Origin: Kaistia dalseonensis
Lineage (GTDB): Bacteria > Pseudomonadota > Alphaproteobacteria > Rhizobiales > Kaistiaceae
Reading direction: 5' to 3'
DNA length: 64,000 nt
Assembly (NCBI RefSeq): GCF_030814715.1
Contig: NZ_JAUSVO010000001.1
Location: 1,240,001-1,304,000, forward strand
A model generated the notes under the pieces. It did no database searches, was not told where the DNA came from, and saw only the letters and a program-made list of their open reading frames with translations. The position numbers and the translations under genes were made by a program. The first letter of the stretch is position 1, and each line of letters starts with the position of its first letter. Positions 4,157-19,855 of this stretch are shown here, piece after piece.

Positions 4157-7100
4157 ATGACGGAAGGCATAGTCCCGCCCATGTCCGAACCGATCCAAAC
4201 CGCCCCGTCCGCCCCCGACCAGGCCGTGCCGACACGGCCCGTCCGGCAGGGTGACCACGTTTTCCTCGTCGATGGCTCGTCCTACATCTTCCGCGCCTAC
4301 CACGCCTTGCCGCCGCTGACGCGCAAGTCCGACGGGCTGCCCGTCGGCGCGGTTGCGGGTTTCTGCAACATGCTGTGGAAGCTGCTCAAGGAAGCCAATG
4401 AGGTCGGCGTCAAGCCGACCCATCTCGCCGTGGTGCTGGACCATTCGGCGGCGACCTTCCGCAACCAGATCTATGATCTGTACAAGGCGCAGCGTCCCGA
4501 GCCGCCGGAGGATCTGCGGCCGCAATTCGGCATGATCCGCAAGGCCGTGCACGCCTTCAACGTCGCCTGCATCGAGCAGAAGGGCTTCGAAGCGGACGAC
4601 CTGATCGCGACCTATGCGCGCCTCGCGGTCGAGGCAGGCGCCGACGTCACCATCGTCGCCTCCGACAAGGATCTGATGCAGCTGATCGGGCCGGGCGTGC
4701 TCATGCTCGATACGATGAAGGGCAAGACGATCGGCCGCGAAGAGGTGTTCGAGAAGTTCGGCGTCACGCCGGACAAGGTCGTCGACATCCAGGCGCTCGC
4801 CGGCGATTCCGTCGACAATGTTCCCGGCGTGCCGGGCATCGGTATCAAGACGGCCGCGCAGCTGATCGACGAATATGGCGATCTCGAAACGCTGCTGGCG
4901 CGCGCCGGCGAAATCAAGCAGCCGAAGCGGCGCGAAGCGCTGATAAACTTCGCCGAGCAGGCGCGCATTTCCATGCGCCTCGTGACGCTCGACCGCAATG
5001 TGCCGCTCAATGAACCGATTGATCGCCTCGGCGTGCGCTCCATCGATGGCGTGCGGCTGATCCGCTTCCTGAAGGCGCTCGAATTCTCGACGCTGACCGG
5101 CCGCGTCGCGGCGGCGACCGGCGTCGAATCCTCGGCCGTCGCGCCCGATCCCGAGATCGCCTCGGCGGCAACAGCGGGGGCAGCCGCACCGGCGCTGGAT
5201 TTCGGACCGGCGGCCGCTTCCGGCGAAGTGGGCGCCCCGCCCTCATCCGATGCGGCCCAGTCGCCGCGTGAACCCGATCCTGCGGGATTGGCGCCATCGC
5301 AGCTCGTCCATGCCCGGCTGAACGAGGCGCGCGCTCATCCGATCGACCGCGCCCGCTACGAGACCGTGGTCTCCGCCGATCGCCTGCGCGACTGGATGGA
5401 GCGCGCGGCCGAGATCGGCGTCGTCGCCGTCGATACGGAGACGACCTCGCTCGACCCGATGCAGGCCGATCTGGTCGGGGTCTCGCTCGCGCTCGCGCCT
5501 GATGAAGCCTGCTACATCCCGCTCGCCCATCGCGGCGCGGGTGACGGGCTCTTCACCGAGGGGCTGCTGCCGGGTCAGATTCCGATCAACGAGGCACTGG
5601 CGATCCTGAAGCCGGTCCTCGAAGATCCGGCGATCCTGAAGATCGCGCAGAACCTCAAATATGACTGGCTGATCCTGGCGCGCTACGGCATCGAGGTCGC
5701 GCCGTTCGACGACACCATGCTGATTTCCTACGTGCTCGATGCCGGGCGCGGCACGCATGGCATGGATCCGCTCTCGGAGAAATGGCTCGGCCACACGCCG
5801 ATCAAGTTCGACGACGTCACCGGCAAGGGCAAGGCGCGCATCACCTTCGACCGCGTGGCGATCGACAAGGCCACCGCCTATGCGGCGGAGGATGCCGACG
5901 TCACGCTCCGCCTGTGGCGCGCGCTGAAACCAAGGCTGGCGGCCGAAGGCATGACGACGGTCTATGAGACGCTGGAGCGGCCCATGGTGCCGGTCCTGGC
6001 GTCGATGGAGCGCCGGGGCATCTCGATCGACCGTTCGATCCTCTCCCGCCTTTCGGGCGAATTTGCACAGAGCGCCGCAGCGCTCGAGGCCGAGATCCAG
6101 GAACTGGCAGGCCAGCCCTTCAACGTGGGCTCGCCCAAGCAGTTGGGCGACATTCTCTTCGGTGTGCTCGGCATGCCTGGCGCGACGAAGACCGCGACCG
6201 GCGCCTGGGCCACGGGCGCGAGCATCCTCGAGGATCTGGCCGAGCAGGGTTATGAGCTGCCGCAGAAGATTCTCGACTGGCGCCAGCTCACCAAGCTGCG
6301 CTCGACCTACACCGATGCGCTTCCCTCCTACCAGCATCCCGAGACCAAACGGGTCCACACCTCCTATGCGCTTGCGGCCACCACGACGGGCCGCCTCTCC
6401 TCGTCCGAGCCGAACCTGCAAAACATTCCCGTTCGCACCGAGGCCGGCCGCAAGATCCGCAAGGCCTTTATCGCCGATCCCGGCTACAAGCTCGTCTCGG
6501 CCGACTATTCGCAGATCGAACTTCGGCTGCTGGCCGAGATCGCCAATATCCCCGCTTTGCGCAACGCCTTCCGCGAAGGCCTCGACATTCACGCCCTCAC
6601 CGCCTCGGAAATGTTCGGCGTGCCGGTCGAGGGCATGCCGTCCGAAGTCAGGCGACGCGCCAAGGCGATCAATTTCGGCATCATCTACGGTATTTCGGCC
6701 TTCGGCCTCGCCAACCAGCTCGGCATCGGCCGCGAAGAGGCGGGCGCCTACATCAAGCGCTATTTCGAGCGTTTCCCCGGCATTCGCGACTATATGGAAG
6801 AGACGAAGCGGATCTGCCGCGACAAGGGCTATGTGACGACCCTGTTCGGCCGCCGCTGCCATTATCCGGAGATCACCTCGAAGAACGCCTCGATCCGCTC
6901 CTTCAACGAGCGCGCGGCGATCAATGCGCGGTTGCAGGGCACCGCCGCCGACATCATCCGTCGCGCCATGATCCGCGTTGCCTCGAAGCTCGACGAGGCG
7001 AAACTCTCGGCCCGCATGCTGCTGCAGGTCCATGACGAACTGATCTTCGAAGTGCCGGACGAGGAGGTCGACGCCACGCTCAAGCTCGTGGCCGAGGTCA

Positions 7101-7189
7101 TGGAGCGGGCGCCGGAGCCGGCGGTCCAGCTTGCCGTCCCGCTCCGCGTCGATGCGCGCGCGGCCGACAATTGGGACGAGGCGCATTGA
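4157..7189 (+). CDS. polA: DNA polymerase I
   Basis: DNA polymerase I, which excises RNA primers and fills gaps in lagging-strand synthesis and repair. It is 1010 aa with all three domains: 5'-nuclease domain (about residues 30-310, FLVDGSSYIFRAYHALPP start and the DSVDNVPGVPGIG helix-hairpin-helix), a Pro/Ala-rich linker (about 320-400), a 3'-5' exonuclease domain with intact VDTETTSLDP Exo I motif (about 420-620), and the polymerase domain with motif A DYSQIELRLL, motif B RRRAKAINFGIIYG and motif C QVHDELIFEV. The proofreading residues appear intact, unlike in some polA families. The start is uncertain: ATG at 4157 or 4181; homologues usually begin near RQGDHVFLVDG, so 20-30 residues may be extra. 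Confidence 0.97.
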   Translation: MTEGIVPPMSEPIQTAPSAPDQAVPTRPVRQGDHVFLVDGSSYIFRAYHALPPLTRKSDGLPVGAVAGFCNMLWKLLKEANEVGVKPTHLAVVLDHSAATFRNQIYDLYKAQRPEPPEDLRPQFGMIRKAVHAFNVACIEQKGFEADDLIATYARLAVEAGADVTIVASDKDLMQLIGPGVLMLDTMKGKTIGREEVFEKFGVTPDKVVDIQALAGDSVDNVPGVPGIGIKTAAQLIDEYGDLETLLARAGEIKQPKRREALINFAEQARISMRLVTLDRNVPLNEPIDRLGVRSIDGVRLIRFLKALEFSTLTGRVAAATGVESSAVAPDPEIASAATAGAAAPALDFGPAAASGEVGAPPSSDAAQSPREPDPAGLAPSQLVHARLNEARAHPIDRARYETVVSADRLRDWMERAAEIGVVAVDTETTSLDPMQADLVGVSLALAPDEACYIPLAHRGAGDGLFTEGLLPGQIPINEALAILKPVLEDPAILKIAQNLKYDWLILARYGIEVAPFDDTMLISYVLDAGRGTHGMDPLSEKWLGHTPIKFDDVTGKGKARITFDRVAIDKATAYAAEDADVTLRLWRALKPRLAAEGMTTVYETLERPMVPVLASMERRGISIDRSILSRLSGEFAQSAAALEAEIQELAGQPFNVGSPKQLGDILFGVLGMPGATKTATGAWATGASILEDLAEQGYELPQKILDWRQLTKLRSTYTDALPSYQHPETKRVHTSYALAATTTGRLSSSEPNLQNIPVRTEAGRKIRKAFIADPGYKLVSADYSQIELRLLAEIANIPALRNAFREGLDIHALTASEMFGVPVEGMPSEVRRRAKAINFGIIYGISAFGLANQLGIGREEAGAYIKRYFERFPGIRDYMEETKRICRDKGYVTTLFGRRCHYPEITSKNASIRSFNERAAINARLQGTAADIIRRAMIRVASKLDEAKLSARMLLQVHDELIFEVPDEEVDATLKLVAEVMERAPEPAVQLAVPLRVDARAADNWDEAH

Positions 7190-7222: not shown

Positions 7223-8206
7223 TCACATCCCCCAGCGCAGCGCCGCGGTATGGACGGGCGCGTCCCAGAACCGTGCGACCTCGTCGTCGAGCATGGATAC
7301 AGTGATCGAGCAGCCGGCCATTTCGAGCGACGTCACGTAGGAACCGACGAGCGCGCGGCCAACGCGAATACCATGTTTTTCAATGGCCTGGCGGGCGGCG
7401 TTGAACATCAGATAGAGCTCCATCGACGGCGTGCCGCCGAAGCCGTTGACGAGCAGGATGGCATCGCCCGTGCCCGGCAGTTCGCTCGCGATCGCGGCCA
7501 CCATCTCGTCGGCGATCTGGCTCGCCGGCTCCAGCTTGACGCGCCGACGGCCAGGCTCGCCATGGATGCCGACGCCCATTTCCATCTCGTCCTCGGCGAG
7601 CGTGAAGGTCGGCGTGCCGGCGGCTGGAACGATGCAGCTCGTGAGCGCGACGCCCATGGACCGCGTCTGCGCATTGACCCGGTCGCCCAGCACCTTCAGT
7701 TCGGCGAGCGGCATGCCCGCCTCGGCGGCCGCACCCACGATCTTCTCCACGATCATCGTGCCGGCGACGCCGCGGCGGCCCGTCGACCAGGTCGAACGTT
7801 CGACCGCGACATCGTCATCGGTGATGACGGTCATGATTTCGCTGCCGGCCATCTCGGCCGCCATTTCGAAGTTCATGACGTCGCCTTCATAGTTCTTGAC
7901 GATGAAGAGCGCGCCGCCGCCCGTGTCGACTTCGGCGACGGCGGCGATCATCTGGTCGGGCGTCGGCGAAGTGAAGACCTGCCCGGGGCAGGCGGCATCC
8001 AGCATGCCGAAGCCGACAAAGCCTGCGTGAAGCGGCTCATGCCCCGAGCCGCCGCCCGAGACGATCGCCGGCTTGCCGGGCTTCAGCAGCGTGCGGCGGA
8101 CGAATTTCCGTTCCTCGCCGAGCCTGACGATATCGGCATGGGCGCTCGCGAAGCCGTCGAGGCTCTCGGCGAGCACCGTCTCGGGCGCGTTGATCAGCTT
8201 CTTCAT
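7223..8206 (-). CDS. dhaK: dihydroxyacetone kinase subunit DhaK
   Basis: Substrate-binding subunit (327 aa) of a PEP-dependent dihydroxyacetone-type kinase; with DhaL it converts dihydroxyacetone, or a related ketose, to its phosphate. Seen: the glycine-rich [13 protein letters not shown] loop, [16 protein letters not shown], and [11 protein letters not shown], which contains the histidine that in E. coli DhaK forms a covalent hemiaminal with the substrate carbonyl. The length fits the single-domain bacterial DhaK rather than the ATP-dependent fused enzyme. A GGGAGGAACC ribosome-binding site precedes the ATG at 8206. It is the last gene of the operon, 41 bp after the HTH-like gene and separated from dhaL by four genes. 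Confidence 0.95.
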
Positions 8207-8247
8207 GGTTCCTCCCTAAACGCAATGACGGGCGAGGCCTCCCTGCC

Positions 8248-8667
8248 CTACCCGTCGACCAGCTTCGCCAGGCGCTGCACGAATTCTCCCACCAGCCGGT
8301 CGAGATCCTGGTTCTTCTCCGGGTCGCCCAGATCCGGCAGGTAGATGACATGCGGCCGGACGCGGCGGACTTCCTTCAGCGACGGCACGCGGCGCGGATG
8401 GGCGCGCGCATAGCCATCGAGGAACAGCCGCCGCTCGTCGGGCGAGAAATGGCAGATCTCGAAGATCGTCTCGATATGCTGCGCCGGAACCGGCGTGGCA
8501 TAGGCGGGGTTGGTGATGTGGCTGACGAAGGAGCGGTTCTTGCCAAGCGCCTGCGCGAGACGCCCGCGCGTGCCGGAGGGCCGATTGTCCAGCACGCGCT
8601 GCAGCACCGCCTTGTAGGCGGCGACCGCTTCGGCGGCCGTGCTCGTCTCTTCGCCGGATTGCTTCAA
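8248..8667 (-). CDS. HTH-like protein embedded in the Dha-PTS operon
   Basis: Predicted 139-aa soluble protein, probably a DNA-binding regulator. The segment TRGRLAQALGKNRSFVSHITNP (about residues 33-54) reads as a Cro/C1-type helix-turn-helix; the C-terminal half (RPHVIYLPDLGDPEKNQDLDRLVGEF) is unassigned. The start is a TTG that overlaps the enzyme I stop as TTGA, suggesting translational coupling; no better start exists in frame. Its place between the PTS enzymes and dhaK suggests it senses the operon's substrate or phosphorylation state, but that is inference. Confidence 0.7.
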   Translation of the reverse strand: MKQSGEETSTAAEAVAAYKAVLQRVLDNRPSGTRGRLAQALGKNRSFVSHITNPAYATPVPAQHIETIFEICHFSPDERRLFLDGYARAHPRRVPSLKEVRRVRPHVIYLPDLGDPEKNQDLDRLVGEFVQRLAKLVDG

Positions 8668-10274
8668 GCGGGAACTCCCGCATGGATTTCGCTCAGCGCC
8701 AGCTTGACCCGACCGACCAGCGGCGGCGCCACGGAGACGGCGCGCAGCCCTGCCACGATCAGGCTCGGCAGGTGGCGCGGATCGCCGCCCATGTCGCCGC
8801 AGAGGCTGACGTCGATGCCGAGTTCCCGGCCCGTCTGGACCGTGTTGCGGATCAGCTCGATCACAGCCGGATGTCCCGGATCGTTCAGTCCAGCGACGGC
8901 CGCGATGTCGCGCGCGCTGGCGGTTGTATATTGGGTCAAATCATTGGAGCCGATCGAGAAGAAGGCCGCGGCGCTGAAGCGCTCGGGCACGATCGCGACG
9001 GCGGGCACCTCGACCATGATGCCGAGCGGCGGCCGGCTCGCGGCAATCCCCTCGCGCGCCAGCTCCACGACAGCCTCGTCAAGCAGCGCCGCCGCCTCGT
9101 CGATTTCTTCGGGAATGGTGATCATCGGCAGCATGATCTTGAGATTGCCGTGCTGTGCGGCTCGCGCCAAGGCCCGCAACTGAACCTTGAAGATCTCGGG
9201 CTTGGCGAGCGACAGGCGAATGCCGCGCGTGCCGAGGAAGGGGTTCGATTCCCCGTCTATGGTGAGCCCGGGCACAGGCTTGTCGCCGCCGGCGTCGACG
9301 GTGCGGATCGTCACCGGCTTCTCGCCCGCCCATTCGAGGATGCGGCGATAGGCGGTGTATTGCGCCATCTCGTCGGGCAGGCCCGACGCGCTCGAGAACA
9401 GGAACTCTGTCCGCACCAGGCCGATCCCGTCGCAGATCGCCGGATCGATGCGGTCGAGCTCGGCCGGCTCGGCGACGTTGATCAGCACGGCGATCCGCAC
9501 GCCATCGGCCGTCATGGCGGGATGGGTGAGCATGGCGGCCTCGCGCACGGCCTGGCCGGCCGCGTCGGCGCGCGCCGCGACATAGGCCGCGAGGTCGTCA
9601 GCGGTCGGGTCGAGGACGAGGCGCCCGCGCGCGCCATCGACGATCGCCTCGGTGAAACCGTTTTCGGGAATCGCGCCGAGGCCGACGGCCATCGGAACGC
9701 CACGCGACCGCGCCAGCATGGCGACATGGCTGGAGGGACTGCCTTCGCTCAGCGCGATAGCGCCGCCCTGCGTCCAGTCGATCGCGAGAAAGCGGCTCGG
9801 CGTCAGATCGCGGCCGATGATGACGGCGCCGGGCGGAACGGTGGCACCGGTCCCGGTCGCGAGCAGATGCCCCAGCACACGGTCGCGCAGATCTTCGAGA
9901 TCGGCGGCGCGCGCGCTGAAATAGGCGTCGTCGCTCGACCGATAATCCTCGATCTGCTCGCCCAGCGTCTCCGACCAGGCCGCGCCCGCCTCGACCCCGG
10001 CGGCGATCGCGCCCAGCGCCGGCGCGCGCAGCGCTTCGTCCTCCAGCATCGCGACCTGAAACTCAAGAATGGCGGCGCCCTCTTCATCCGCCGCACCGAT
10101 CAGCAGCAAGAGGTCCTCCGTCGCGGCCTGAATGGCGGCCTCCAGCGCACCGCGCTCTTCGGCGGGCGTGCCGGCGTGGCGATGCAGGCCGGCCAAATCC
10201 ACGATCCGGTGGATCGGGCCACGTGCAATCCCCGGCGCCGCGGCACGGCCGAAGCGTTCAACCATTGCCGACAT
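8664..10274 (-). CDS. PTS enzyme I (phosphoenolpyruvate-protein phosphotransferase)
   Basis: Takes phosphate from PEP and passes it to HPr. The 536-aa protein starts with the enzyme I N-terminal motif AAAPGIARGPI, has the swivelling phosphohistidine domain (ALSEGSPSSHVAMLARSRGV, active His in SSH) and a PEP-binding barrel with RTEFLF, TVDAGGDKP, GSNDLTQYT and the SLCGDMGG cysteine motif. There is no N-terminal GAF domain, so it is not the nitrogen-PTS enzyme PtsP but a dedicated enzyme I. It overlaps the HPr gene by 17 bp. In E. coli DhaM the EIIA, HPr and a truncated EI are fused in one chain; here they are three genes and the EI is full length. Confidence 0.93.
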   Translation of the reverse strand: MSAMVERFGRAAAPGIARGPIHRIVDLAGLHRHAGTPAEERGALEAAIQAATEDLLLLIGAADEEGAAILEFQVAMLEDEALRAPALGAIAAGVEAGAAWSETLGEQIEDYRSSDDAYFSARAADLEDLRDRVLGHLLATGTGATVPPGAVIIGRDLTPSRFLAIDWTQGGAIALSEGSPSSHVAMLARSRGVPMAVGLGAIPENGFTEAIVDGARGRLVLDPTADDLAAYVAARADAAGQAVREAAMLTHPAMTADGVRIAVLINVAEPAELDRIDPAICDGIGLVRTEFLFSSASGLPDEMAQYTAYRRILEWAGEKPVTIRTVDAGGDKPVPGLTIDGESNPFLGTRGIRLSLAKPEIFKVQLRALARAAQHGNLKIMLPMITIPEEIDEAAALLDEAVVELAREGIAASRPPLGIMVEVPAVAIVPERFSAAAFFSIGSNDLTQYTTASARDIAAVAGLNDPGHPAVIELIRNTVQTGRELGIDVSLCGDMGGDPRHLPSLIVAGLRAVSVAPPLVGRVKLALSEIHAGVPA

Positions 10275-10563
10275 GGGCTCCGACCTCGTCGAAATCGCGC
10301 TCGACCAGCCCGACCAGGGCCGCCACCGCCGCATCCGCATCAGCTCCTCGGGCGCGGAAATGCAGCGTCGTGCCTTGTGGCGCCTTGGCGGCCATGACCT
10401 TGACGATGCTCTTGGCGTCGATCCACGGTCCGTCCCCACCGAGGCCGAGCTCAATCGCCGACTGGAAGGTCTTGGCGAGCTTGGTCAGCTTCACCGAAGG
10501 GCGCGCATGCAGCCCGACCTCATGGGTGAGCAGGACACTGGCGGTTGTTTCGCTGTCGGCCAT
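10258..10563 (-). CDS. HPr phosphocarrier protein
   Basis: A 101-aa HPr that relays phosphate from enzyme I to DhaM. The active-site motif HEVGLHARPS (about residues 14-23) is intact, and KSIVKVM further on retains a serine at the position regulated by HPr kinase in other bacteria. The ATG at 10563 is chosen because a GGAAGGA ribosome-binding site lies just upstream; a GTG at 10578 is also in frame. It sits 18 bp after dhaM and overlaps the enzyme I gene, as expected for a dedicated relay. Confidence 0.93.
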   Translation of the reverse strand: MADSETTASVLLTHEVGLHARPSVKLTKLAKTFQSAIELGLGGDGPWIDAKSIVKVMAAKAPQGTTLHFRARGADADAAVAALVGLVERDFDEVGAHVGNG

Positions 10564-10581
10564 CACATTTCCTTCCACGCC

Positions 10582-10995
10582 TCAGGCGGGCGATAGTTCT
10601 TCCGCCATCCGTCTCACGGCATCGAGCGAAGCGCCGCCCGAGGCCTCCGTCGCGGCGATCACCGCGCCTTCGACGATCGGCGCGTTGCAGACGACGATCC
10701 TGCCCTGCCGCTCGGCCGGCTGCATCTCGATCGCCATTTCCGAATTGGTCTCCGCCCCGCCGAGATCGACGAGGATCGCGACGCCGGCCTCCGACCACGC
10801 CCGGTCGATCGCAGCCAGGATCGCTTCGACGCTGGTGCCGAGCCCGCCGCCGGGATCGCCGCCACAGAAGGCGAGCGGCACCTCCTCGCCCACCATCTGG
10901 CGCACCATCTCGGCCGTGCCTTTGGCGACGTCGGGCGAATGCGACACGATCACGATGCCGACATTGCCGTTCGCTGGATTCACTGGAGCGTTCAT
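10582..10995 (-). CDS. dhaM: DhaM, EIIA-type phosphotransferase subunit
   Basis: A 137-aa EIIA (mannose-family) domain protein that phosphorylates the ADP held by DhaL. The N-terminal strand ends in VIVSHSPDVAKG, whose histidine is the phosphorylation site; GGDPGGGLGTS and LVDLGGAETNSEMA follow, as in DhaM/PTS-EIIA(man) proteins. It contains only the EIIA domain, HPr and EI being encoded by the next two genes. Start overlaps the dhaL stop as ATGA. Confidence 0.92.
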   Translation of the reverse strand: MNAPVNPANGNVGIVIVSHSPDVAKGTAEMVRQMVGEEVPLAFCGGDPGGGLGTSVEAILAAIDRAWSEAGVAILVDLGGAETNSEMAIEMQPAERQGRIVVCNAPIVEGAVIAATEASGGASLDAVRRMAEELSPA

Positions 10996-11588
10996 AGTGC
11001 CTTTTCCGCCGTCTGCGAGATGGCTGCGACGAGCAATGCACTCGACCGCGCGCCGGGGTCCATGTGGCCGATCGACCGGTCGCCGAGGAAAGACGCCCGG
11101 CCGCGGATCGCCTTCATCGGGATCGTCGCCTCGGCCGCGGCTGAGGCGACCGCGGCGGGGTCGCCGCCATGGGTCAGCGCGTCTGCGACGGGGGCGAGGA
11201 CGTCGAGCATCGTCTTCTGGCCGATCTCGGATTTGCCGCGCGCCTTGACCGCCTCGATCGCGACGCCGAGCGCGCGGCCGAGATCGGCACGGGTCGGGTC
11301 AGCCGGCAGTTCCTTGCCCAAAGTCATGGCGAGCGTGCCGTAGAGCGGACCCGACGCGCCGCCAACCTTCATGACCAACGTCATGCCGATGGCCTTCAAC
11401 GCATCCGGCAAAGGCTTCGCCGCCAGACTGTCGAGATCGGCCAGCACGGCCTCAAGGCCGCGCTTCATGTTGAGCCCGTGATCACCGTCGCCGATCGCCT
11501 GGTCGAGCGCCGTCAGTTCGTCGGCATGGTCGATCACGCTACGCGCCGCCGTTTCGATCAAGGCCCGCCGCCTGGCTTCGTCGAGCAT
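10992..11588 (-). CDS. dhaL: dihydroxyacetone kinase subunit DhaL
   Basis: Nucleotide-binding subunit of the PEP-dependent kinase: it holds ADP permanently as a phosphate-carrying cofactor. The 198-aa protein has the DQAIGDGDHGLNM Mg-ADP binding motif and KVGGASGPLYGT, both diagnostic of DhaL. The ATG at 11588 follows a GGGAGGGA ribosome-binding site and overlaps the ABC ATPase stop by one base (TGATG). The joint between transporter and kinase genes is therefore seamless, so they are co-transcribed and probably translationally coupled. Confidence 0.95.
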   Translation of the reverse strand: MLDEARRRALIETAARSVIDHADELTALDQAIGDGDHGLNMKRGLEAVLADLDSLAAKPLPDALKAIGMTLVMKVGGASGPLYGTLAMTLGKELPADPTRADLGRALGVAIEAVKARGKSEIGQKTMLDVLAPVADALTHGGDPAAVASAAAEATIPMKAIRGRASFLGDRSIGHMDPGARSSALLVAAISQTAEKAL

Positions 11589-12610
11589 CAATTCCCTCCC
11601 CCGATGCGATTCCCCGCCTGATCGAAGTAGAGCGGATCGACCAGCGACAAGGCAACTTGGTCGCCTGCGACAAGATCCGTCTGCGGATCGACAAGCGTCG
11701 TCAGCTTGCGATCCCCGACGCTGACGTGAAGATGGTTCTGGTCGCCGAGATGCTCGATCCATTCGACCTTGCCGATCGCATGGCCGTTCGACGCCTTCTC
11801 GATCCTGAGATGCTCCGTCCGCGCGCCGATCGTCCGGGTGCCGGCGGGCGCACTGCCAGCCGGGATCAAGCCTTCGGGCACCAGATTGATCGCCGGCTGG
11901 CCGAGGCGCGCGGCGACGTAGAGATTGGCGGGATTGCGATAGATCTCGCGCGGGCTGCCGATCTGCACCAGACGCCCGGCATTCAGGATGCCGATCCGGC
12001 TCGCCAGCGTCATCGCCTCGATCTGGTCGTGCGTGACATAGAGGATGGTCGCGCCGAGATCCTGCTGGATGCGCTTCAGTTCCAGCCGGAGATCGGAGCG
12101 GAGTTTGGCATCGAGCGAGGAGAGCGGTTCGTCCATGAGGTAGATCGACGGCCGTCGCACCAGCGCCCGGCCAATCGCGACGCGCTGCATCTCGCCGCCC
12201 GAAAGCTGGGTCGCCCGGTTCTGCAGCTTGTGGGCGATCCTGAGCATGGTCGCAATATCGGTGACGCGGCGCTTGATCTCGGGTTCGGCAACGCGCCGCG
12301 CCGGCGAGCGCAGCGGAAAGGCGAGGTTGTCGTAGACCGAGAGATGCGGATAGAGCGAATATTGCTGAAAGACGAAGGTTACGTCCCGCCCGGCCGGCTC
12401 GACCGTCGTCACGTCATGGCCGCCGATGAAGATGCGGCCCTGGTCGGCACGTTCGAGGCCGGCGACAAGCCGCAGGGTCGTCGTCTTGCCGGCTCCGGTC
12501 GGCCCGAGCAGGACGATCAACTCGCCATCGGCGATGGTGAGGTTCAGATCATCGATGGCGGTCGTGGTGCCGAACCGCTTGGTGACGCCATCGAGCACGA
12601 CATCAGCCAT
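11588..12610 (-). CDS. ABC transporter ATPase, carbohydrate type (second)
   Basis: 340-aa nucleotide-binding subunit of the importer encoded upstream. Walker A GPTGAGKTT (a threonine where most relatives have serine), Q-loop VFQQYSLYPHLSVYDNLAFPL, signature LSGGEMQRVAIGRALV, Walker B YLMDEPLSSLD and the H-loop TH are all present, followed by a C-terminal OB/TOBE-like regulatory domain of about 100 residues as in MalK/UgpC types. Start at 12610 overlaps the preceding ATPase by 8 bp. Having two different ATPases recalls the GlpS/GlpT pair of the rhizobial glycerol importer and suggests a heterodimer. Confidence 0.93.
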   Translation of the reverse strand: MADVVLDGVTKRFGTTTAIDDLNLTIADGELIVLLGPTGAGKTTTLRLVAGLERADQGRIFIGGHDVTTVEPAGRDVTFVFQQYSLYPHLSVYDNLAFPLRSPARRVAEPEIKRRVTDIATMLRIAHKLQNRATQLSGGEMQRVAIGRALVRRPSIYLMDEPLSSLDAKLRSDLRLELKRIQQDLGATILYVTHDQIEAMTLASRIGILNAGRLVQIGSPREIYRNPANLYVAARLGQPAINLVPEGLIPAGSAPAGTRTIGARTEHLRIEKASNGHAIGKVEWIEHLGDQNHLHVSVGDRKLTTLVDPQTDLVAGDQVALSLVDPLYFDQAGNRIGGGN

Positions 12611-13700
12611 GGGCGGCCCCCTCACGCAGCGCGGAGCGCACGGCCCGGCCGGAGGCCCGGTCGAAAAGCGACAGGCGCTCGGAACGGAAGGCGAGCCCTA
12701 CCGTCTCGCCGGGATGCACGATGCGGTCCGAAGGCAGCCGCGCCTTGATCGAGCCATGCGCGGTTTCCACGGCCACGATCTGCGTCGTGCCGAGATATTC
12801 CGAGCCGAAGACGGCGCCGCGCAGCTTCGACCGATCGTCGAAGACGATGTGCTCCGGGCGGATGCCGAGCGCGAACTGGGCCGGCGCGTGATCCTCCCGA
12901 ATTTCCGGCACGGGCACCTCGGCGCCATTGACGCGCACCAGGCGGTCGCCGGCTGCGAGCCCGCCATGGAAGGTGAGGAAATTCATTGGCGGCGAGCCGA
13001 GGAAATCGGCGACGAACATGGTGGCGGGACGGTCATAGATTTCCTGCGGCTTGCCGAACTGCTCGATCACGCCATGGTTCATGACGGCGATCTTGTCGGC
13101 CATCGACATGGCCTCGAGCTGGTCGTGGGTGACATAGACAGTCGTCGCGTGGATGCGGTTATGAAGCTCGCGCAATTCCCGCACCATCAGGTCGCGAAAC
13201 TCGGTATCGAGCGTGCCGAGCGGCTCGTCCATCAGGAACGCCTTCGGCCGCCGCACGATGGCGCGGCCGAGCGCGACGCGCTGGCGGTCGCCGCCCGCAA
13301 GGCCGGAGACGGGCCGATCGAGCAGATGATCAATGCGCAGCAGCTTCGCCGCCTCCTCGACGCGCTGGCGAACCTCGCCCCGCGGCATGCCCTGGCAGAC
13401 CAGCGGGAAGCCGATATTCCTGCGCACATTCATATGCGGATAGAGCGCGAACATCTGGAAGACGAAGGCGATATCGCGCGCCGCTGCGCGATTGAACGTG
13501 ACGTCCTCGCCACCGAGCAGGATCTGCCCCGCCGTCGGCAGTTCGAGCCCTGCGATCATGCGCAGCGTCGTCGTCTTGCCGCAGCCCGACGGTCCCAGCA
13601 TGACGAAGAACTCGCCATCCTCGATCGTGAAGGTCGACCCCTTCACCGCCGTGAAGGAACCGAAGGATTTCTGGACGTTCTCGACCCGGATCTCGGCCAT
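12603..13700 (-). CDS. ABC transporter ATPase, carbohydrate type (first)
   Basis: 365-aa nucleotide-binding subunit. Walker A GPSGCGKTTTLRMIAGLE, Q-loop VFQMFALYPHMNVRRNIGFPL, Walker B FLMDEPLGTLD and the H-loop VTHDQLEAMSMA are intact. The signature reads LAGGDRQRVALGRAIV: LAGGD replaces the usual LSGGQ, the catalytic serine being an alanine, so in a heterodimer with the next ATPase one of the two ATP sites may be degenerate. A C-terminal TOBE-type domain follows. It starts 3 bp after the small membrane-protein gene. Confidence 0.93.
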   Translation of the reverse strand: MAEIRVENVQKSFGSFTAVKGSTFTIEDGEFFVMLGPSGCGKTTTLRMIAGLELPTAGQILLGGEDVTFNRAAARDIAFVFQMFALYPHMNVRRNIGFPLVCQGMPRGEVRQRVEEAAKLLRIDHLLDRPVSGLAGGDRQRVALGRAIVRRPKAFLMDEPLGTLDTEFRDLMVRELRELHNRIHATTVYVTHDQLEAMSMADKIAVMNHGVIEQFGKPQEIYDRPATMFVADFLGSPPMNFLTFHGGLAAGDRLVRVNGAEVPVPEIREDHAPAQFALGIRPEHIVFDDRSKLRGAVFGSEYLGTTQIVAVETAHGSIKARLPSDRIVHPGETVGLAFRSERLSLFDRASGRAVRSALREGAAHG

Positions 13701-13703
13701 GGC

Positions 13704-13916
13704 TTACTCCGGAAAATGGCTGACGATCGCGAACAGGATCGTGCCCGCGAGGATCGTAATGAAGGAATAGGCGTAAGCGGTCGCCGAATAGGGCTGCATC
13801 AGCATGACGACGCCGAGCCCGATCAGGATGGTCGCGATATTTTCCCAGGGCCCGCGGCGCAGGCGCAGGATCTTTGTGACCAGCGATGGTCGCGGCGGGA
13901 CGTGAATGTCGCTCAT
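13704..13916 (-). CDS. 70-aa two-helix membrane protein of the ABC operon
   Basis: A short protein with two predicted membrane helices (about residues 26-41 and 48-66) after a basic N-terminus. It overlaps the permease stop as ATGA and lies between permease and ATPase genes, so it is probably an accessory subunit of this transporter. The rhizobial glycerol importer operon carries a small membrane protein (GlpU) at a comparable place, but this sequence does not look like that DUF2160 family. Function unknown. Confidence 0.75.
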   Translation of the reverse strand: MSDIHVPPRPSLVTKILRLRRGPWENIATILIGLGVVMLMQPYSATAYAYSFITILAGTILFAIVSHFPE

Positions 13917-14866
13917 TTCCGCACCGCGCCGAAGGTGATGCCGCGCAGGAGGTGTTTCCTGAGCAGGATGGTGAAGACGAAGATCGGGATGACGAACAGC
14001 GTGGTCGCGGCCGCGACGGCCGGCCAGTCCTGCCCGCCCTCCCCGATGATGAACGGGATGAAGGGCGGCATGGTCTGCGCCGTGCCGGAGGTCAGCAGCA
14101 CCGCGAAGGCATATTCGTTCCAGGCGAAGATCAGGCAGAAGATTGCCGTCGCCGCGATGCCGGTCGCGGCCTGCGGCAGCACCGCCTTGCGGAAAGCCTG
14201 CAGGCGGGTATAGCCGTCGATCATCGCGGCTTCCTCATATTCGCGCGGGATCTCGTCGATGAAACCCTTGAGCAGCCAGACGGCGAGCGACACGTTGACG
14301 GCCGTATAGAGCAGGATCATGCCGAGCTTGGTGTCGGAGAGGCCGAGCTCGCGATACATGAGATAGATCGGGATCGCGACGGCGATCGGCGGCATCATGC
14401 GCGTCGAGAGGATAAAGAACAGCAGGTCGTCCTTGAGCGGCACCTTGAAGCGCGAGAAGCCATAGGCCGCGAGCGTTCCGAGGAACACCGCCAGGAAGGT
14501 CGAGCCGAAGGCGATGATGATCGAATTGACGAAGCGCGGAATGACGTTGGACGGGCCGGCGATGACCATGTTCCGGGAGCGCACCAGCTTGTCGTACCAG
14601 GTCGTCGGCGGCGGCAGCGTCGCGATCACCTCCGGCGTCTGCCGCGTCCGCGTCGTGAAGAGGTTCACATAGCCTTCGAGCGAGGGCGTGAAGATCACCT
14701 TGGGCGGATAGGAGATCGAATCCGGCGGTGTCTTGAAGCTCGTCGCGATGATCCACAGCAGCGGGATCATGGTGATGATTGCATAGACGATCACCAGAGC
14801 GCCGGCGATGCGGCGCGAGGCGGTCGAGGGCGCGACGACGGAATGGGCTTGGGTCAATCCGGGCAT
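13913..14866 (-). CDS. ABC transporter permease, MalG type
   Basis: 317-aa inner-membrane permease with six hydrophobic segments. The EAA loop is seen as EIPREYEEAAMIDGYTRLQAFRKAVLPQA, with the conserved glycine, which docks the ATPase. The single hydrophobic N-terminus followed by a large periplasmic loop (about residues 45-105) is typical of MalG/UgpE proteins. A TGAGGA ribosome-binding site precedes the ATG at 14866, 7 bp after the first permease. Confidence 0.92.
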   Translation of the reverse strand: MPGLTQAHSVVAPSTASRRIAGALVIVYAIITMIPLLWIIATSFKTPPDSISYPPKVIFTPSLEGYVNLFTTRTRQTPEVIATLPPPTTWYDKLVRSRNMVIAGPSNVIPRFVNSIIIAFGSTFLAVFLGTLAAYGFSRFKVPLKDDLLFFILSTRMMPPIAVAIPIYLMYRELGLSDTKLGMILLYTAVNVSLAVWLLKGFIDEIPREYEEAAMIDGYTRLQAFRKAVLPQAATGIAATAIFCLIFAWNEYAFAVLLTSGTAQTMPPFIPFIIGEGGQDWPAVAAATTLFVIPIFVFTILLRKHLLRGITFGAVRK

Positions 14867-14873
14867 GACATCC

Positions 14874-15836
14874 TCACCGCTGCTTCACGCGGTTCAGGGC
14901 CTTCACATAGATGTTCGCGAGGCCGAAGACGGTGACGAAAAGGATGATGGCGAGCGCCGAGGAATAGCCGGTGCGCCAGCTTTCGAAAGCCTGCCGCTTC
15001 AGCGTGATCGAGACCACCTCGGTGGTCGAGCCGGGTCCGCCGCCGGTCAGGAGGTTCACCATGTCGAACATCTTGAAGTTCTCAATGCCGCGGAAGAGCA
15101 CGGCGAGCATGATGAAGGGCAGCGCCATCGGCAGCGTGATCGACCAGAACTGGCGCCAGGGCGAGGCGCGGTCGACCTCGGCCGCCTCGTAGATATAGTC
15201 GGGGATCGAGCGCAGCCCGGCGAGACAGATCAGCATGACATAAGGCGTCCACATCCAGGCATCGACGATGACGATCGCCCAGGGCGAGAGCCGCACGCTG
15301 CCCAGCATCTGGAACGAGGACGGATCGATGCCGGTCACGAAGGAGATGGCGTAATTGAACAGCCCGCTCTGCGGCTGGTAGAGGAACGTCCAGAAATTCC
15401 CCACCACCGCCGGCGACAGCATCATCGGGATCAGGATGACGGTCGTCCAAAGCGCGTGGCCGCGAAACTTCTTGTCGATCAGCCAGGCGAGGCCGAAGCC
15501 GAGCACGGTCTCGATGATGATCGTCCAGATGACGAAATGCGCCGTGGTCTGCATCGCGGCCCAGACATCCGCATCGCCGAGAATGCGATGGTACCAGTCG
15601 AGCCCGACATATTTGACTTCGGCATTCGGCCGGTTGGCGCGGTAGTTCGTGAAGGACAGATAGATCGTCCAGATCAACGGAAAGATGTTGATCGCGAGCA
15701 GGAGAAGGATGGTCGGCCCGATGAAGAGCCAGGCGATGGCCTTGTCGGAGAGGCCGCGCACCGTCTTGCCGATGCCGGACGGCATGGCTTCGGCGACCCG
15801 ATCGGCAAAGGCTGTCTGGGCGGGAAGTTCGGTCAT
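14874..15836 (-). CDS. ABC transporter permease, MalF type
   Basis: About 320-aa inner-membrane permease with six helices. The first helix WLFIGPTILLLLAINIFPLIW and the segment YLSFTNYR are typical of MalF/UgpA permeases; the EAA loop is seen as SIPDYIYEAAEVDRASPWRQFWSITLPM. The ATG at 15836 begins just before the N-terminal helix; an in-frame ATG at 15860 adds eight residues and neither has a strong ribosome-binding site. It lies 95 bp after the binding-protein gene. Confidence 0.92.
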   Translation of the reverse strand: MTELPAQTAFADRVAEAMPSGIGKTVRGLSDKAIAWLFIGPTILLLLAINIFPLIWTIYLSFTNYRANRPNAEVKYVGLDWYHRILGDADVWAAMQTTAHFVIWTIIIETVLGFGLAWLIDKKFRGHALWTTVILIPMMLSPAVVGNFWTFLYQPQSGLFNYAISFVTGIDPSSFQMLGSVRLSPWAIVIVDAWMWTPYVMLICLAGLRSIPDYIYEAAEVDRASPWRQFWSITLPMALPFIMLAVLFRGIENFKMFDMVNLLTGGGPGSTTEVVSITLKRQAFESWRTGYSSALAIILFVTVFGLANIYVKALNRVKQR

Positions 15837-15931
15837 GGACCTACGATCCGGGCGTGTCATGGTGAGGGCGGTCAGGGTCGCCGTTCCGGGTTTGAGCGAA
15901 CCCGGAACGGCCGCTTTCTGTGCCGGGACGG

Positions 15932-17266
15932 CTACATCTTGCCGTCGTCCTGGAAGACCTGCGTCCAGTCGGCGACGAGCTTGTCGAGCGCTTCCTTGGC
16001 CGTGCCCTGGTCGGCGACGACATAGTCATGGACGCGCTTCTGTTCCGCCTGGAGCAGTTGCGCATAGGACGGCTCGGCCCAGAAATCCTTGACCATGGCC
16101 ATGGATTCCAGGAACTGCGCCGCGAACGGTGCGCTCTCCGGGAAGCTCGGATCGTTCAGGACCGACTTGGCGCAGGAATAGCCGCCGAGCGTCCACCACT
16201 TCTTCTGCACGTCGGGCTTGGCGAACCACTTGATGTACTGGAGCGCCTCGTCCTGCTTGTCGGAATAGGCGACCACCGAGATGCCCTGCCCGCCGAGCTG
16301 GGTGAAATGGCCCGCCGGTCCCGCCGGATTGACGAAGAAGCCGATCTTGTCGCCGCCGACATTCGGGTCCTTGTAGAGGCCGGGGAAGAAGGCGAAGAAG
16401 TTCATCTGGAGCGCCACCTGCCCCGATTTGAACGCGTCCAGGCCCTCGCTCATATAGCTGTTCGAGGCGCCGGGCGGCGTGCAGCACTTGTAGAGCTCTT
16501 TGTAGAATTCGAGGCCGGCGATCGCGCCGGGCGAATTCACGAAACCTTCCATCTCATACGGCTTTTTCGGGTTCTGATATTCGAAGCCGTAATCATAGAG
16601 GACGTTCGAGACGCCCATGGTGATGCCCTCGGAGCCGCGCTCCGTATAGATCGAGGCGCCATAGACCGTCTTGCCGTCGATCTCTCGGCCCTGGAAGAAC
16701 GTCGCGATGTCCTTCAACTCGTCATAGGTCTTCGGGACAGCGAGATCGCGGCCGTATTTCTCCTTGAACGCCGCCTGGATCTCGGGCTTGGCGAACCAGT
16801 CCTTGCGATAGGTCCAGCCGACGGCGTCGCCCATGGCCGGCAGCGCCCAGTAGTTCGGCGTGTTCTTCGGCCATTCCGAATAGCCGACCACCGTCGCCGG
16901 CATGAAGTCATCCATCGAGATGCCTTCCTTGGCGAAGAAGTCGTTCAGCTTGACGTAATGGCCGTTCTCGGCCGAGCCGCCGATCCACTGGCTGTCGCCG
17001 ATGATCAGGTCGCAGAGCTTGCCATGCGAGTTGAGCTCGTTCAGGAAGCGGTCGGCATAGTTCGTCCACGGGACGAATTCGAATTTCATGTCGATGCCGG
17101 ATTGCTTGGTGAAATCCTTCGACAATTCGACGAGCGCATTGGCGGGATCCCAGGCGGCCCAGCAGAGCGTCAGCTGCTTGTCGGCCGCCCTGGCGCCATC
17201 GATCGATGCGCCGGTCATCAAGACGGCCGCGCCGATCGCGGCAGCCACGGCGATTAGCTTCCTCAT
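15932..17266 (-). CDS. ABC transporter substrate-binding protein, family 1
   Basis: 444-aa periplasmic binding protein. A cleavable signal peptide (MRKLIAVAAAIGAAVLMTGA, cleavage likely after the ARA near residue 27) precedes a family 1 fold with WDPANALVELSKDFTKQSGIDMKF and later QVALQMNFFAFFPG and EALQYIKWFA. It is clearly shorter than the roughly 570-residue glycerol-binding protein GlpV, so substrate identity is not simply glycerol. Because the operon continues into dha kinase genes, a three- or four-carbon ketose or polyol is the best guess. GGGAGGGA precedes the ATG at 17266. First gene of the operon. Confidence 0.92.
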   Translation of the reverse strand: MRKLIAVAAAIGAAVLMTGASIDGARAADKQLTLCWAAWDPANALVELSKDFTKQSGIDMKFEFVPWTNYADRFLNELNSHGKLCDLIIGDSQWIGGSAENGHYVKLNDFFAKEGISMDDFMPATVVGYSEWPKNTPNYWALPAMGDAVGWTYRKDWFAKPEIQAAFKEKYGRDLAVPKTYDELKDIATFFQGREIDGKTVYGASIYTERGSEGITMGVSNVLYDYGFEYQNPKKPYEMEGFVNSPGAIAGLEFYKELYKCCTPPGASNSYMSEGLDAFKSGQVALQMNFFAFFPGLYKDPNVGGDKIGFFVNPAGPAGHFTQLGGQGISVVAYSDKQDEALQYIKWFAKPDVQKKWWTLGGYSCAKSVLNDPSFPESAPFAAQFLESMAMVKDFWAEPSYAQLLQAEQKRVHDYVVADQGTAKEALDKLVADWTQVFQDDGKM

Positions 17267-17808
17267 CAGTCCCTCCCTGAAAAGCCCATGCGTCCGCGAT
17301 CGCGCAAAAGACCGGCGCGTCCGCTTGGATCGCTTCCTCGCGCGACCCTGGGCAGGTGATTTGAAGACGTTCCCTCATGCGCCGGTTCATTCCGGCGGCT
17401 GTTTAGTTATTTTGTTTAGTAGAGCGCAGTTTCATAAACTGTGCAATGGCTGTTTTCAGCCATTATGTGTGCATTGCAACATAAATAAACTAAACCATGT
17501 TTAGTAATCCGCCGTGTCGATCAATACCGCCGCCAACGCGCGCGGCAGGTCGGATTCGGTCGTGTGTGCCGAGATGCGATGCAGCGACCGCCTCGTTATC
17601 GTGCAGTGCAACATAGGCGATTGATATCCGGGGCGAGCTGTGGCACGGCGGGTGTCAGGCTCTCCGCCCATCCGCCATTCGCCGGCCTAACGCCCGGCCC
17701 CTTCGCCCCTTCCCGAAGGAAGAGACATCATGCGCCAATCGATCCGTACCCATTCCATGAACACCGCCCCCAGACCGGCCGGCGCCTTCGGGCAGAGGAA
17801 CTGAGACG
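17267..17808. other. divergent intergenic region
   Basis: 540 bp between two divergent operons, holding the operator cluster at 17401-17505 and presumably both promoters. A weak minus-strand candidate is TTGCAC with a 17-bp spacer to TCTACT (about 17444 down to 17416). The stretch 17510-17808 shows no credible gene. Confidence 0.45.
17401..17505. promoter_or_regulatory. operator cluster upstream of the ABC-Dha-PTS operon
   Basis: Between the binding-protein gene and the deoxyribosyltransferase gene. Seen: GTTTAGT twice as a direct repeat 13 bp apart (17401-17407 and 17414-17420); a palindrome with 7-bp arms ACTAAAC/GTTTAGT and a 3-nt centre (17489-17505); and a perfect 8-bp hairpin AATGGCTG/CAGCCATT (17445-17452, 17457-17464), flanked by TGCAATG/CATTGCA (17442-17448, 17472-17478). 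The repeated GTTTAGT suggests one regulator binding at several sites and looping or cooperating. The position suits control of the minus-strand operon, the plus-strand operon, or both. The regulator is not evident. Confidence 0.6.
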
Positions 17809-18390
17809 ATGAAGGTTTACCTCGCCGGGCCGGAAGTGTTCTTCGAGAACCGCGACGCCATCATGTCGGCCAAGACCGAATTGACGCGCCGCTATGGCTT
17901 CACGCCGACGGTCTGGACGGGGGAGAAATACGATCCCTCCTCGAGCCCGTTCGACATTGGCCTGCAGATCAGCGCCTTCAACGAGAATGTCATGCGCGAG
18001 AGCGATCTGATCATCGCCAATCTGACGCCCTATCGCGGCATCAGCGCTGATGTCGGCACGGCCTATGAACTCGGCTTCATGGTCGCGAGCGGCAAGCCGG
18101 CCTTCGGCTATTCGAATGATGGCCGCCTCTTCGCCGAGCGCGTCACCGCCGATTACTACAAGGGCGCGGTCGCGCGGGACCTGCGCGGGTTCATCCGCGG
18201 CGCCGACGGGCTGCTCGTGGAAAACAACGACATGGGCGACAATCTGATGCTGGATGGCGGCATCCGCCACATGGGCGGCGTCTTCATCCGCCGCTCCGTC
18301 GCGCCGGAACGGATGTTCGATGATCTCGGCGCCTTCGAGGAATGCCTCGCCGCCGCCCGCGCCCGCCTTCTCGGAGCCTCAGCAGCATGA
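17809..18390 (+). CDS. nucleoside 2-deoxyribosyltransferase family protein
   Basis: 193-aa soluble protein of the nucleoside 2-deoxyribosyltransferase superfamily, which cleaves or exchanges the N-glycosidic bond of deoxynucleosides or related nucleosides. Seen: the N-terminal KVYLAGPEVFF strand-loop, the SDLIIANLTPYRG segment and SADVGTAYELGFM, whose glutamate corresponds to the catalytic nucleophile in the family. A GAGGAAC ribosome-binding site precedes the ATG. The stop overlaps the amidase start as ATGA. Together with the nucleoside hydrolase two genes on, it suggests nucleoside breakdown. Confidence 0.85.
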   Translation: MKVYLAGPEVFFENRDAIMSAKTELTRRYGFTPTVWTGEKYDPSSSPFDIGLQISAFNENVMRESDLIIANLTPYRGISADVGTAYELGFMVASGKPAFGYSNDGRLFAERVTADYYKGAVARDLRGFIRGADGLLVENNDMGDNLMLDGGIRHMGGVFIRRSVAPERMFDDLGAFEECLAAARARLLGASAA

Positions 18391-19799
18391 CGACATCTGC
18401 CCCCACAGCATCGGATATGGTCGAAGATCTCGCCGCAGGCCGTGTTTCCGCCGTCGATCTCTTCGAGGACGCCGTTGCGCGCATCGAGGCCGAGGATGGC
18501 GCCATCAATGCCGTGGTCGTCAGGGATTTCGACCGTGCCCGTGATGCGGCCAAGGCGGCCGATGCCGCGCTCGCGCGCGGAGAGCGGCGGCCTTTCCTCG
18601 GCGTGCCGGTCACGATCAAGGAATCGTTCGACATCGCCGGCCTGCCGACGAGCTGGGGGCTTTCCTATTATCGCAATGCGATCGCCACGGCCGATTCCGC
18701 CGCTGTCGCGCGCCTGCGGGCGGCGGGCGCCGTCATCCTCGGCAAGAGCAATGTTTCCGAGGCGCTGTCGGGCTGGGATGGCGACAATCCGGTCTATGGC
18801 CGCACGAGCAACCCGCTCGATCTGAACCGCACGCCCGGCGGGTCCTCGGCCGGTGCCGCCGCCGCCGTCGCGGCCGGTTTCGTGCCCTTCGATATCGGCT
18901 CGGATATTGGCGGCTCGATCCGCGTTCCCGCGCATTTCTGCGGCCTCTATGGCCATAATACCAGCTATGGCGTGATCCCTTTGCGCGGCCATGTGCTGGA
19001 GGGACGGCGCGCCCGCATCGACTTCTCCTGCCCCGGTCCGATCGCGCGCTCCGTCGCCGATCTCGAGCGCGGCCTCGCCGTGATGGCGGGTCCCGATGAG
19101 GATGAAGCCGTCGGCTACAGCCTGACGCTGCCGCCGGCGCGCCACCGTGCCCTGCGCGACTACCGTGTCCTGGTGCTGACGCAGCATCCGCTGATCCCGA
19201 CGGATCCCGAGATTTCCGGCGCCGTCGAACGGCTGGCCGGCGCGCTCGGGCAGGCTGGCGCCAGGGTGACCGCGGCCGAGCCGATCATTCCCGATCTCGC
19301 CATGCTGACGCGCAACTATATCGAGCTCCTTTCTGCGGCGCTGACCGTGGCCGACACCGATGAAGGCGCGGCGCAGCGCGCCGAGGCGCTCGCCGCTCTG
19401 TCACCCGACGACCAGAGCTTCCGTGCGCTGCGCCTGCGCGGCGCCGGCACGGCGCATTATGAGTGGCTGCGTGCCAATGAGGTCAGGGCCAAATTGCGGC
19501 ACGCCTGGCGCCAGGTGTTCATGGATTATGACGTCCTGATCTGCCCGCCCTTCCCGACCACCGCGCCGACCCATGCCGAGAGTGCCGAGCCGACCATCAC
19601 CGTTGACGGCCGGATGATCGACCGCAGTGACCAGATCGCCTGGTGCGCACCGGCGACCGGCTCGGGCCTCCCCGCCACCGTCGCACCGATCGCGCGCAGC
19701 CGAGCGGGCCTGCCGATCGGCGTCCAGATCATCGCGCCCTATCTGGAGGACTATACCGGGCTCCGTTTCGCCGCGCTGATCCGCGAGCTGACGGGGTGA
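18387..19799 (+). CDS. amidase signature family hydrolase
   Basis: 470-aa amide hydrolase of the amidase signature family. The catalytic Ser-cisSer-Lys triad is complete: lysine in PVTIKESFD, and both serines in GGSSAGAAAAVAAG with SDIGGSIRVPAHFCG following. The ATG at 18387 overlaps the preceding stop (ATGA), so the two genes are translationally coupled. Substrate unknown; with nucleoside-cleaving enzymes on both sides, an amide of a heterocycle (nicotinamide-like or a ring-opened base) is conceivable. Confidence 0.88.
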   Translation: MTTSAPTASDMVEDLAAGRVSAVDLFEDAVARIEAEDGAINAVVVRDFDRARDAAKAADAALARGERRPFLGVPVTIKESFDIAGLPTSWGLSYYRNAIATADSAAVARLRAAGAVILGKSNVSEALSGWDGDNPVYGRTSNPLDLNRTPGGSSAGAAAAVAAGFVPFDIGSDIGGSIRVPAHFCGLYGHNTSYGVIPLRGHVLEGRRARIDFSCPGPIARSVADLERGLAVMAGPDEDEAVGYSLTLPPARHRALRDYRVLVLTQHPLIPTDPEISGAVERLAGALGQAGARVTAAEPIIPDLAMLTRNYIELLSAALTVADTDEGAAQRAEALAALSPDDQSFRALRLRGAGTAHYEWLRANEVRAKLRHAWRQVFMDYDVLICPPFPTTAPTHAESAEPTITVDGRMIDRSDQIAWCAPATGSGLPATVAPIARSRAGLPIGVQIIAPYLEDYTGLRFAALIRELTG

Positions 19800-19829
19800 A
19801 CCGGATTGACAGTTCCGGGAACCGCCTCG

Positions 19830-19855
19830 AAACTTGTTTGACTACGAACAAGTTT
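19830..19855. promoter_or_regulatory. palindromic operator before the nucleoside hydrolase
   Basis: A 26-bp palindrome: left arm AAACTTGTTTG, 4-nt centre, right arm CGAACAAGTTT, with 10 of 11 arm positions complementary. It ends 11 bp before the ATG at 19867 and overlaps the ribosome-binding region, so a bound repressor would block expression of the hydrolase. A very similar site lies at 25033-25052. Confidence 0.7.

Follow-up and report, generated by a model that had tools for sequence, protein, structure and literature searches.

An ABC importer that keeps a DhaK-family kinase while the phosphoryl donor changes: a candidate ketose uptake and trapping operon in Kaistia dalseonensis and its relatives

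Gene clusters that combine a dihydroxyacetone (DHA) kinase with components of the phosphoenolpyruvate (PEP)-dependent phosphotransferase system (PTS) have been described before. A 2008 paper noted that in M. loti and B. japonicum the genes for enzyme I (EI) and HPr cluster with those for DHA kinase (PMC2405797, Fig. 7 text). In Bradyrhizobium diazoefficiens the genes blr3566-blr3577, treated in the relevant passages as ATP-binding cassette (ABC) plus PTS genes, were all twelve up together (4.2- to 24.3-fold) in an array of a tetR-type mutant, their levels in bacteroids being lower (PMC5017801), and a blr3566 orthologue appears among nodule-stage genes (PMC8632152). A six-part ABC importer, GlpSTPQUV, is described as serving glycerol (PMC7912956). 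Here we analyse a stretch of 64,000 nucleotides from Kaistia dalseonensis (RefSeq GCF_030814715.1, contig NZ_JAUSVO010000001.1, positions 1,240,001 to 1,304,000; "the window"), in which twelve co-directional intact open reading frames on the minus strand, from 17266 down to 7223, encode an ABC importer, a PTS-type DHA kinase with its phosphorelay, and a helix-turn-helix (HTH) protein. The novelty that the initial annotation implied for this cluster did not hold, as blr3566-blr3577 has the same twelve genes in the same order, judging from the published passages on it (PMC5017801), and the cluster was accordingly rejected as new. What the present analysis adds is the exchange of the kinase behind the importer and a DNA site linked to the HTH gene, both worked out by comparison. 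In order of transcription the genes are:

15932 to 17266, minus strand: SBP, the solute-binding protein, 444 aa, first gene of the operon (SBP_bac_1/SBP_bac_8)
14874 to 15860, minus strand: permease P1, 328 aa (BPD_transp_1)
13913 to 14866, minus strand: permease P2, 317 aa (BPD_transp_1)
13704 to 13916, minus strand: S70, a small membrane protein of the importer, 70 aa, its position and size kept in the relatives read
12603 to 13700, minus strand: ATPase A1, 365 aa (ABC_tran, TOBE_2, OB_MalK)
11588 to 12610, minus strand: ATPase A2, 340 aa (ABC_tran, TOBE_2)
10992 to 11588, minus strand: dhaL, 198 aa, PTS-type, motif IGDGDHGLN (TIGR02365, 207.8 bits, cut-off 138.3)
10582 to 10995, minus strand: dhaM, 137 aa, an EIIA-Man domain only, motif VSHS (TIGR02364, 135.1 bits, cut-off 98.25)
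10258 to 10563, minus strand: HPr, 101 aa, motif GLHARP (PF00381, 77.1 bits)
8664 to 10274, minus strand: enzyme I, 536 aa, three domains, motifs SSHVAMLAR and CGD (TIGR01417, 351.3 bits, cut-off 341.7)
8248 to 8667, minus strand: HTH protein, 139 aa, proposed local regulator, on the grounds of a predicted lambda-repressor-like domain, adjacency to EI and association with an upstream footprint
7223 to 8206, minus strand: dhaK, 327 aa, motif GIHGEPG (TIGR02363, 457.5 bits, cut-off 406.25)

Across the 150 genomes of the order that were analysed, relatives of the SBP (E limit 1e-100) fall into 38 places with identities of at least 65% and 11 with identities no higher than 49%, with none between, and orthologues of 65-83% identity are present in 37 other genomes. 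With the HTH protein as a marker for the relay, the 38 genomes with a close importer orthologue comprise 24 that have the HTH gene and relay and 14 that do not. In 12 of these 14 a fused DhaK-DhaL protein of 538-544 aa stands directly behind the importer, and in the other two the contigs end inside the importer. Three fused kinases were tested; their best match is TIGR02361 (dak_ATP) at 489-527 bits, below the cut-off of 575, and their DhaL motif is one that we take to be of the ATP type. Seven loci hold both the ATP-type kinase and the HTH-marked relay, while an eighth two-kinase locus, L158, combines the ATP-type kinase with a relay that lacks the HTH gene. (The importer locus of L158 is near-identical to that of L156, where only remnants of dhaL and dhaK are left.) On a tree of the importer (64 rows plus an outgroup) the ATP-type kinase requires at least three changes and the relay at least two. 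On two betaproteobacterial plasmids (L184, L190) the importer is accompanied by dhaL and dhaK, while DhaM, HPr, EI and HTH genes are missing from the locus, and six genomes carry the relay with no adjoining importer, their best SBP match reaching at most 32% identity. Importer and relay each also occur without the other, and where the relay is missing the importer is accompanied by a different DhaK-family kinase; a kinase of this family is the common element of the importer loci whose sequence allowed a full reading. As the importer keeps it whatever the phosphoryl donor, the imported substrate is probably also the substrate of the kinase. The mixed module of ABC importer and PEP-driven kinase proposed in the initial annotation is supported and is linked across relatives.

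The heptamer GTTTAGT/ACTAAAC is repeated in the region before the SBP gene, with the consensus GTTTAGT-N12-ACTAAAC and, most usually, the longer form TTGC-N2-T-GTTTAGT-N12-ACTAAAC-A. The corresponding elements of the window are:

17414 to 17439, minus strand: proposed operator GTTTATG-N12-ACTAAAC, which departs from the consensus at two positions, has TTGC before it at about 17446-17443 and is found at the same place in relatives
17401 to 17407, minus strand: third operator heptamer, ACTAAAC
17489 to 17505, no strand assigned: upstream inverted pair ACTAAAC-N3-GTTTAGT

All four ACTAAAC copies of the window lie within 17401-17505, against 0.53 expected, and the site at 17414-17439 is the only one in the genome with two mismatches or fewer (five for a control pattern). 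The presence of at least two heptamers upstream follows the type of kinase (41 of 45 relay-only loci, 5 of 8 two-kinase loci and none of 11 with only the ATP-type kinase) and the HTH gene (46 of 52 importer loci that have it, none of 12 that do not, and none of 3200 dinucleotide shuffles). Among the six relays without an importer, four have at least two heptamers in the region before dhaL. A scan of 86 loci and the window for paired sites, allowing one mismatch (two for the window), gave 43 in the 87 sequences, every one of them no more than 400 bp before an SBP or dhaL gene. There are 15 exact pairs (spacer 11-13) in the 150 genomes, each in a different genome; fourteen of them are at the starts of these operons in HTH-bearing genomes, and one (G407) is beside an aldo/keto reductase gene.

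Thirteen plasmid loci (12 among 40 rows listed and one among 30), fetched independently of motif discovery, became 12 once L188, a paralogue at 43%, had been excluded. Before their SBP genes the heptamer is present in all four loci with the HTH gene (as a paired site in three) and in none of the eight without it. On the tree enlarged to 76 rows the HTH gene changes twice and the site goes with it: at least one heptamer precedes 55 of 56 loci with the HTH gene and 2 of 20 without, and at least two precede 48 and none, respectively. The two independent contrasts point in the same direction in almost every one of 200 pairings (1.9 of 2).

The 139-aa HTH protein itself, like S70, matched no Pfam or NCBIfam family at E 0.001, and against Pfam HTH_31 it scored 13.7 bits (cut-off 27). 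Its gene adjoins that of EI in 64 of 64 relay loci. In a model built with 20 sequences (predicted local distance difference test, pLDDT, 85) five helices make up the N-terminal part and one more helix lies at the C-terminus. Lambda-repressor-like domains account for most of the best 50 of 137 Foldseek matches (best E 0.18), and a lambda-repressor-like (XRE) fold is tentatively predicted. The predicted fold and the association with the upstream footprint lend support to the built-in regulator suggested by the initial annotation. One locus, L022 (G043, 7785-12725), has a fused DhaM-HPr-EI together with a separate DhaM, 68% identical to that of the window, directly before the HTH gene; this single case suggests that a DhaM of this type and the HTH protein work together. 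The switch, moreover, seems to be exchanged along with the kinase, as 13 of the order's 14 importer loci without the HTH gene have a LacI-type gene nearby (relatives of one query), compared with 4 of the 71 relatives in the HTH- and EI-seeded sets.

The reading of this site as the operator of the HTH protein has to be set against several observations that weigh on the other side. The window's own paired site carries the two mismatches; six loci with the HTH gene fall short of two heptamers (L023, L076, L081, L085, L098, L102); and two relays without an importer have one heptamer (L078) or none (L096, which has GTTTAGC...GCTAAAC). The exact pair is no commoner than its reversed control (15 versus 15, the latter in 13 genomes), hence the number of sites is uninformative and the evidence lies in their place. 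Two independent changes of the HTH gene on the tree are too few for significance, and Foldseek returned no PDB match to the HTH model at E 0.001. A scan of the promoter region for the sigma-70 consensus gave no match, and the overlap of site and promoter is proposed because a conserved TTGC precedes the site at a constant spacing. Ownership of the site by some other regulator would be in line with the frequent lack of linkage between regulators and their sites; we consider it quite unlikely, as the site tracks the HTH gene rather than the importer and occurs once per genome (in the 15 exact-match genomes, and also in the window's own), as for a local regulator.

The protein families named in the initial annotation were confirmed by Pfam and NCBIfam searches. 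The importer consists of SBP_bac_1, BPD_transp_1 twice and two ABC_tran ATPases with TOBE domains, all the elements expected of a carbohydrate ABC importer with MalK-type ATPases, and the kinase and relay of Dak1, Dak2, EIIA-man, PTS-HPr and the three PEP-utiliser domains of enzyme I. The NCBIfam models dhaK1, dha_pts, dha_L_ycgS and PTS_I_fam each score over their own cut-offs, DhaM being of the EIIA-Man type over that of TIGR02364. DhaK aligns through its catalytic motif with the E. coli DhaK chain 4lrx_A, with GIHGEPG matched, and the histidine of this motif, which we take to be the substrate-binding residue, is found in 35 of 35 DhaK rows. DhaL aligns likewise with the E. coli chain 3pnl_B, and the PTS-type GDGDHG motif is present in 34 of 35 rows (GDADHG in L049). 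In enzyme I the SSH (active-site histidine) and CGD (cysteine) motifs align with chain 2hro_A; the strict histidine motif is found in 29 of 39 rows, and among the 10 misses the histidine is kept in each of the 7 inspected, a set that excludes the three Salinicoccus rows. From these intact motifs we infer that phosphate could pass from PEP through EI and HPr to the kinase.

Taken together, the operon is likely, in our judgement, to be a single autoregulated unit that takes up a short ketose, DHA being the most likely one, and traps it with phosphate from PEP. The SBP would pass the ketose to an ATP-driven importer made of the two permeases, the two ATPases and the 70-aa membrane accessory; inside the cell DhaK would hold it through the active-site histidine, and phosphate would travel from PEP via EI, HPr, DhaM and DhaL-ADP to the ketose. 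The resulting DHA phosphate could enter central metabolism with no further enzyme of the operon needed. The HTH protein may bind GTTTAGT-N12-ACTAAAC across the promoter and control the operon, probably as a repressor, in response to a signal that we can only infer. DHA is the simplest choice of substrate, because no other enzyme is conserved with importer and kinase and its phosphate requires no extra step; the polyol that the initial annotation had also allowed for is not supported, the conserved block having no dehydrogenase. As a more speculative extension, which we hold rather less probable than not, the 139-aa protein may found an undescribed regulator family that senses whether DhaM is phosphorylated, or DhaK/DhaL occupied by ketose, thereby linking transcription of an ATP-driven importer to the supply of PEP. 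The result would be a switch gated by the PTS but lacking a PTS permease, within a cassette that kept its importer while its donor was swapped between a private PEP relay, ATP and no local relay at all.

The proposed assignment of the substrate has its own difficulties. The model of the SBP is poor (pLDDT 61), and some of the recurrent neighbours may point to a larger sugar. Xylose isomerase and/or xylulokinase (XylA, XylB) is near 7 of 76 importer or relay loci (L019, L020, L052, L091, L154, L164, L165), and a pair of IolE-like TIM-barrel and Gfo/Idh genes near 17 of 76 (L078, L083, L084, L096 and 13 others), including four of the six relays without an importer. DhaK homologues with C4 ketose substrates exist, and the import of a C4-C5 ketose (erythrulose- or pentulose-like, for example), with DhaK as its kinase, is the alternative to which we would give most room, though we still think it unlikely: the conserved block has no isomerase or aldolase, the flanks vary, and DhaK scores over the dhaK1 equivalog cut-off. 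The six-part plan of SBP, small membrane protein, two permeases and two ATPases recalls GlpSTPQUV as described in the passages on it (PMC7912956), and would suit import of glycerol with a dehydrogenase elsewhere yielding DHA. The block contains no dehydrogenase, glpK or glpD, and identity of the 70-aa protein with DUF2160 was rejected by sequence, as four members gave no match even at E 10. DUF2160 is the family that we take to include GlpU. We therefore give the glycerol importer very little chance.

A different role for the relay, in which phosphorylation of EI, HPr and DhaM would report the PEP state and gate the importer or the HTH protein while the kinase serves endogenous DHA, has a precedent in the reported inactivation of ABC transport by PTSNtr in R. 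leguminosarum (PMC3665714). The six relay loci without an importer, and the separate DhaM beside the HTH gene of L022, are consistent with it as well. The relay nevertheless includes full catalytic kinase subunits and importer orthologues elsewhere pair with a kinase without any relay, which makes this account improbable. Compared with all of these, uptake and trapping of a short ketose by the twelve-gene operon remains the reading that we prefer.

It is plausible that the relay is dedicated to the kinase. The 5.18-Mb genome has one Dak1, two EI N-domains (that of this EI and of a 759-aa frame on contig 2) and two HPr (this one and one on contig 2), and since a second EI and HPr exist, cross-talk feeding the relay is possible. 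The PTS_EIIC family PF02378, the one EIIC family that the search covered, was absent from the genome. The same genome encodes a 48% paralogue of the SBP (C4:234669-235940, L027) with its own permeases and ATPase genes and without S70 or DhaK.

Of 289 genomes from the class 10 contain a match to the HTH protein, as do 32 of the 150 genomes from the order. The two same-genus genomes in the draw comprise one with the HTH gene (G415) and one without it (G385, best SBP match 47%). A search for the gene order in relatives, which the initial annotation had proposed as a check, found the block linked across families. The 71 relatives fetched come from sets of 9, 30 and 32, the set of 30 having been seeded by the enzyme I query and so favouring close kin. 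All twelve genes are present in the same order (SBP, P1, P2, S70, A1, A2, dhaL, dhaM, HPr, EI, HTH, dhaK) in 43 of the 71 (6 of 9, 21 of 30 and 16 of 32), which argues that this order is not due to chance. The other 28 comprise seven with an added ATP-type kinase gene, seven cut by a contig end, six with the relay and no importer, one with dhaK inverted, one with a fused relay and six without the block. The importer tree gives L028 (Bradyrhizobium sp. U87765) and L029 (Kaistia hirudinis) as relatives of the window's importer. Two matches to the HTH protein that have no dha genes alongside, L082 and L086 (E 1.9e-4), were excluded; L082 (12530-12916) has an HTH relative and no dha genes in 19.5 kb, and its genome also carries a full block (L074).

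The run of twelve genes with 1-, 4-, 8- and 17-bp overlaps was borne out by the junctions read from the sequence, of which six are overlaps (1-17 bp) and five are gaps. In the importer part these are a gap of 71 bp between SBP and P1 (the longest), a gap of 7 between P1 and P2, an overlap of 4 between P2 and S70, a gap of 3 between S70 and A1, and an overlap of 8 between A1 and A2. A2 and dhaL overlap by 1 bp and dhaL and dhaM by 4, with 18 bp between dhaM and HPr; HPr and EI overlap by 17 and EI and HTH by 4 (TTG start), and 41 bp separate HTH from dhaK. The longest gap contains one further feature:

15861 to 15931, minus strand: 13-bp GC-rich hairpin in the SBP-P1 gap (-32.6 kcal/mol, z -3.5 against 200 shuffles)

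This hairpin, lying behind the SBP gene, probably stabilises the mRNA. The block is flanked on one side by a convergent polA (4157-7189, plus strand) and on the other by divergent genes for a nucleoside 2-deoxyribosyltransferase, an amidase and an inosine-uridine nucleoside hydrolase (17809-20817, plus strand). Across the loci no flanking gene is conserved; the IolE-like and Gfo/Idh pair and XylA/XylB recur in part of them only.

A single search of open-licence literature, judged by title and the start of the abstract, yielded no report of DHA uptake by a dedicated bacterial ABC importer, and open-licence searches yielded no paper on the substrate of this importer. The operon offers a widespread importer with a testable substrate candidate, a natural exchange of PEP- and ATP-driven kinases behind one transporter, and a candidate DNA site for an unannotated protein. 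The closest counterpart is that of B. diazoefficiens, whose strain SZCCT0423 (L035) has the block orthologous to the twelve genes of the window; by position and by L035, bsr3569 equates to S70 and blr3576 to the HTH protein. The passages on blr3566-blr3577 name no substrate, no regulatory role for blr3576 and no operator (PMC5017801). The clusters of M. loti and B. japonicum resemble that of the window in that their operons join DHA kinase with EI and HPr encoded by separate genes, and the corresponding passages mention no ABC importer, HTH gene or operator (PMC2405797). With GlpSTPQUV the importer shares the six-part plan, its small protein being without a DUF2160 match; neither glpK nor glpD is in the operon or beside it, the places in which they were sought. 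The window has the DhaK, DhaL and DhaM subunits of E. coli DhaKLM with matching motifs. It differs in that DhaM is a single EIIA domain of 137 aa and not the fused protein of the 473-position model NF008478, and in that the operon includes EI and HPr and an attached ABC importer. The proposed regulator is not DhaR-like, DhaR being that of the E. coli system. The single-chain ATP-type DAK (TIGR02361), finally, is not part of the window's genome, which has one Dak1 only, and in other genomes it fills the place of the kinase behind the same importer.

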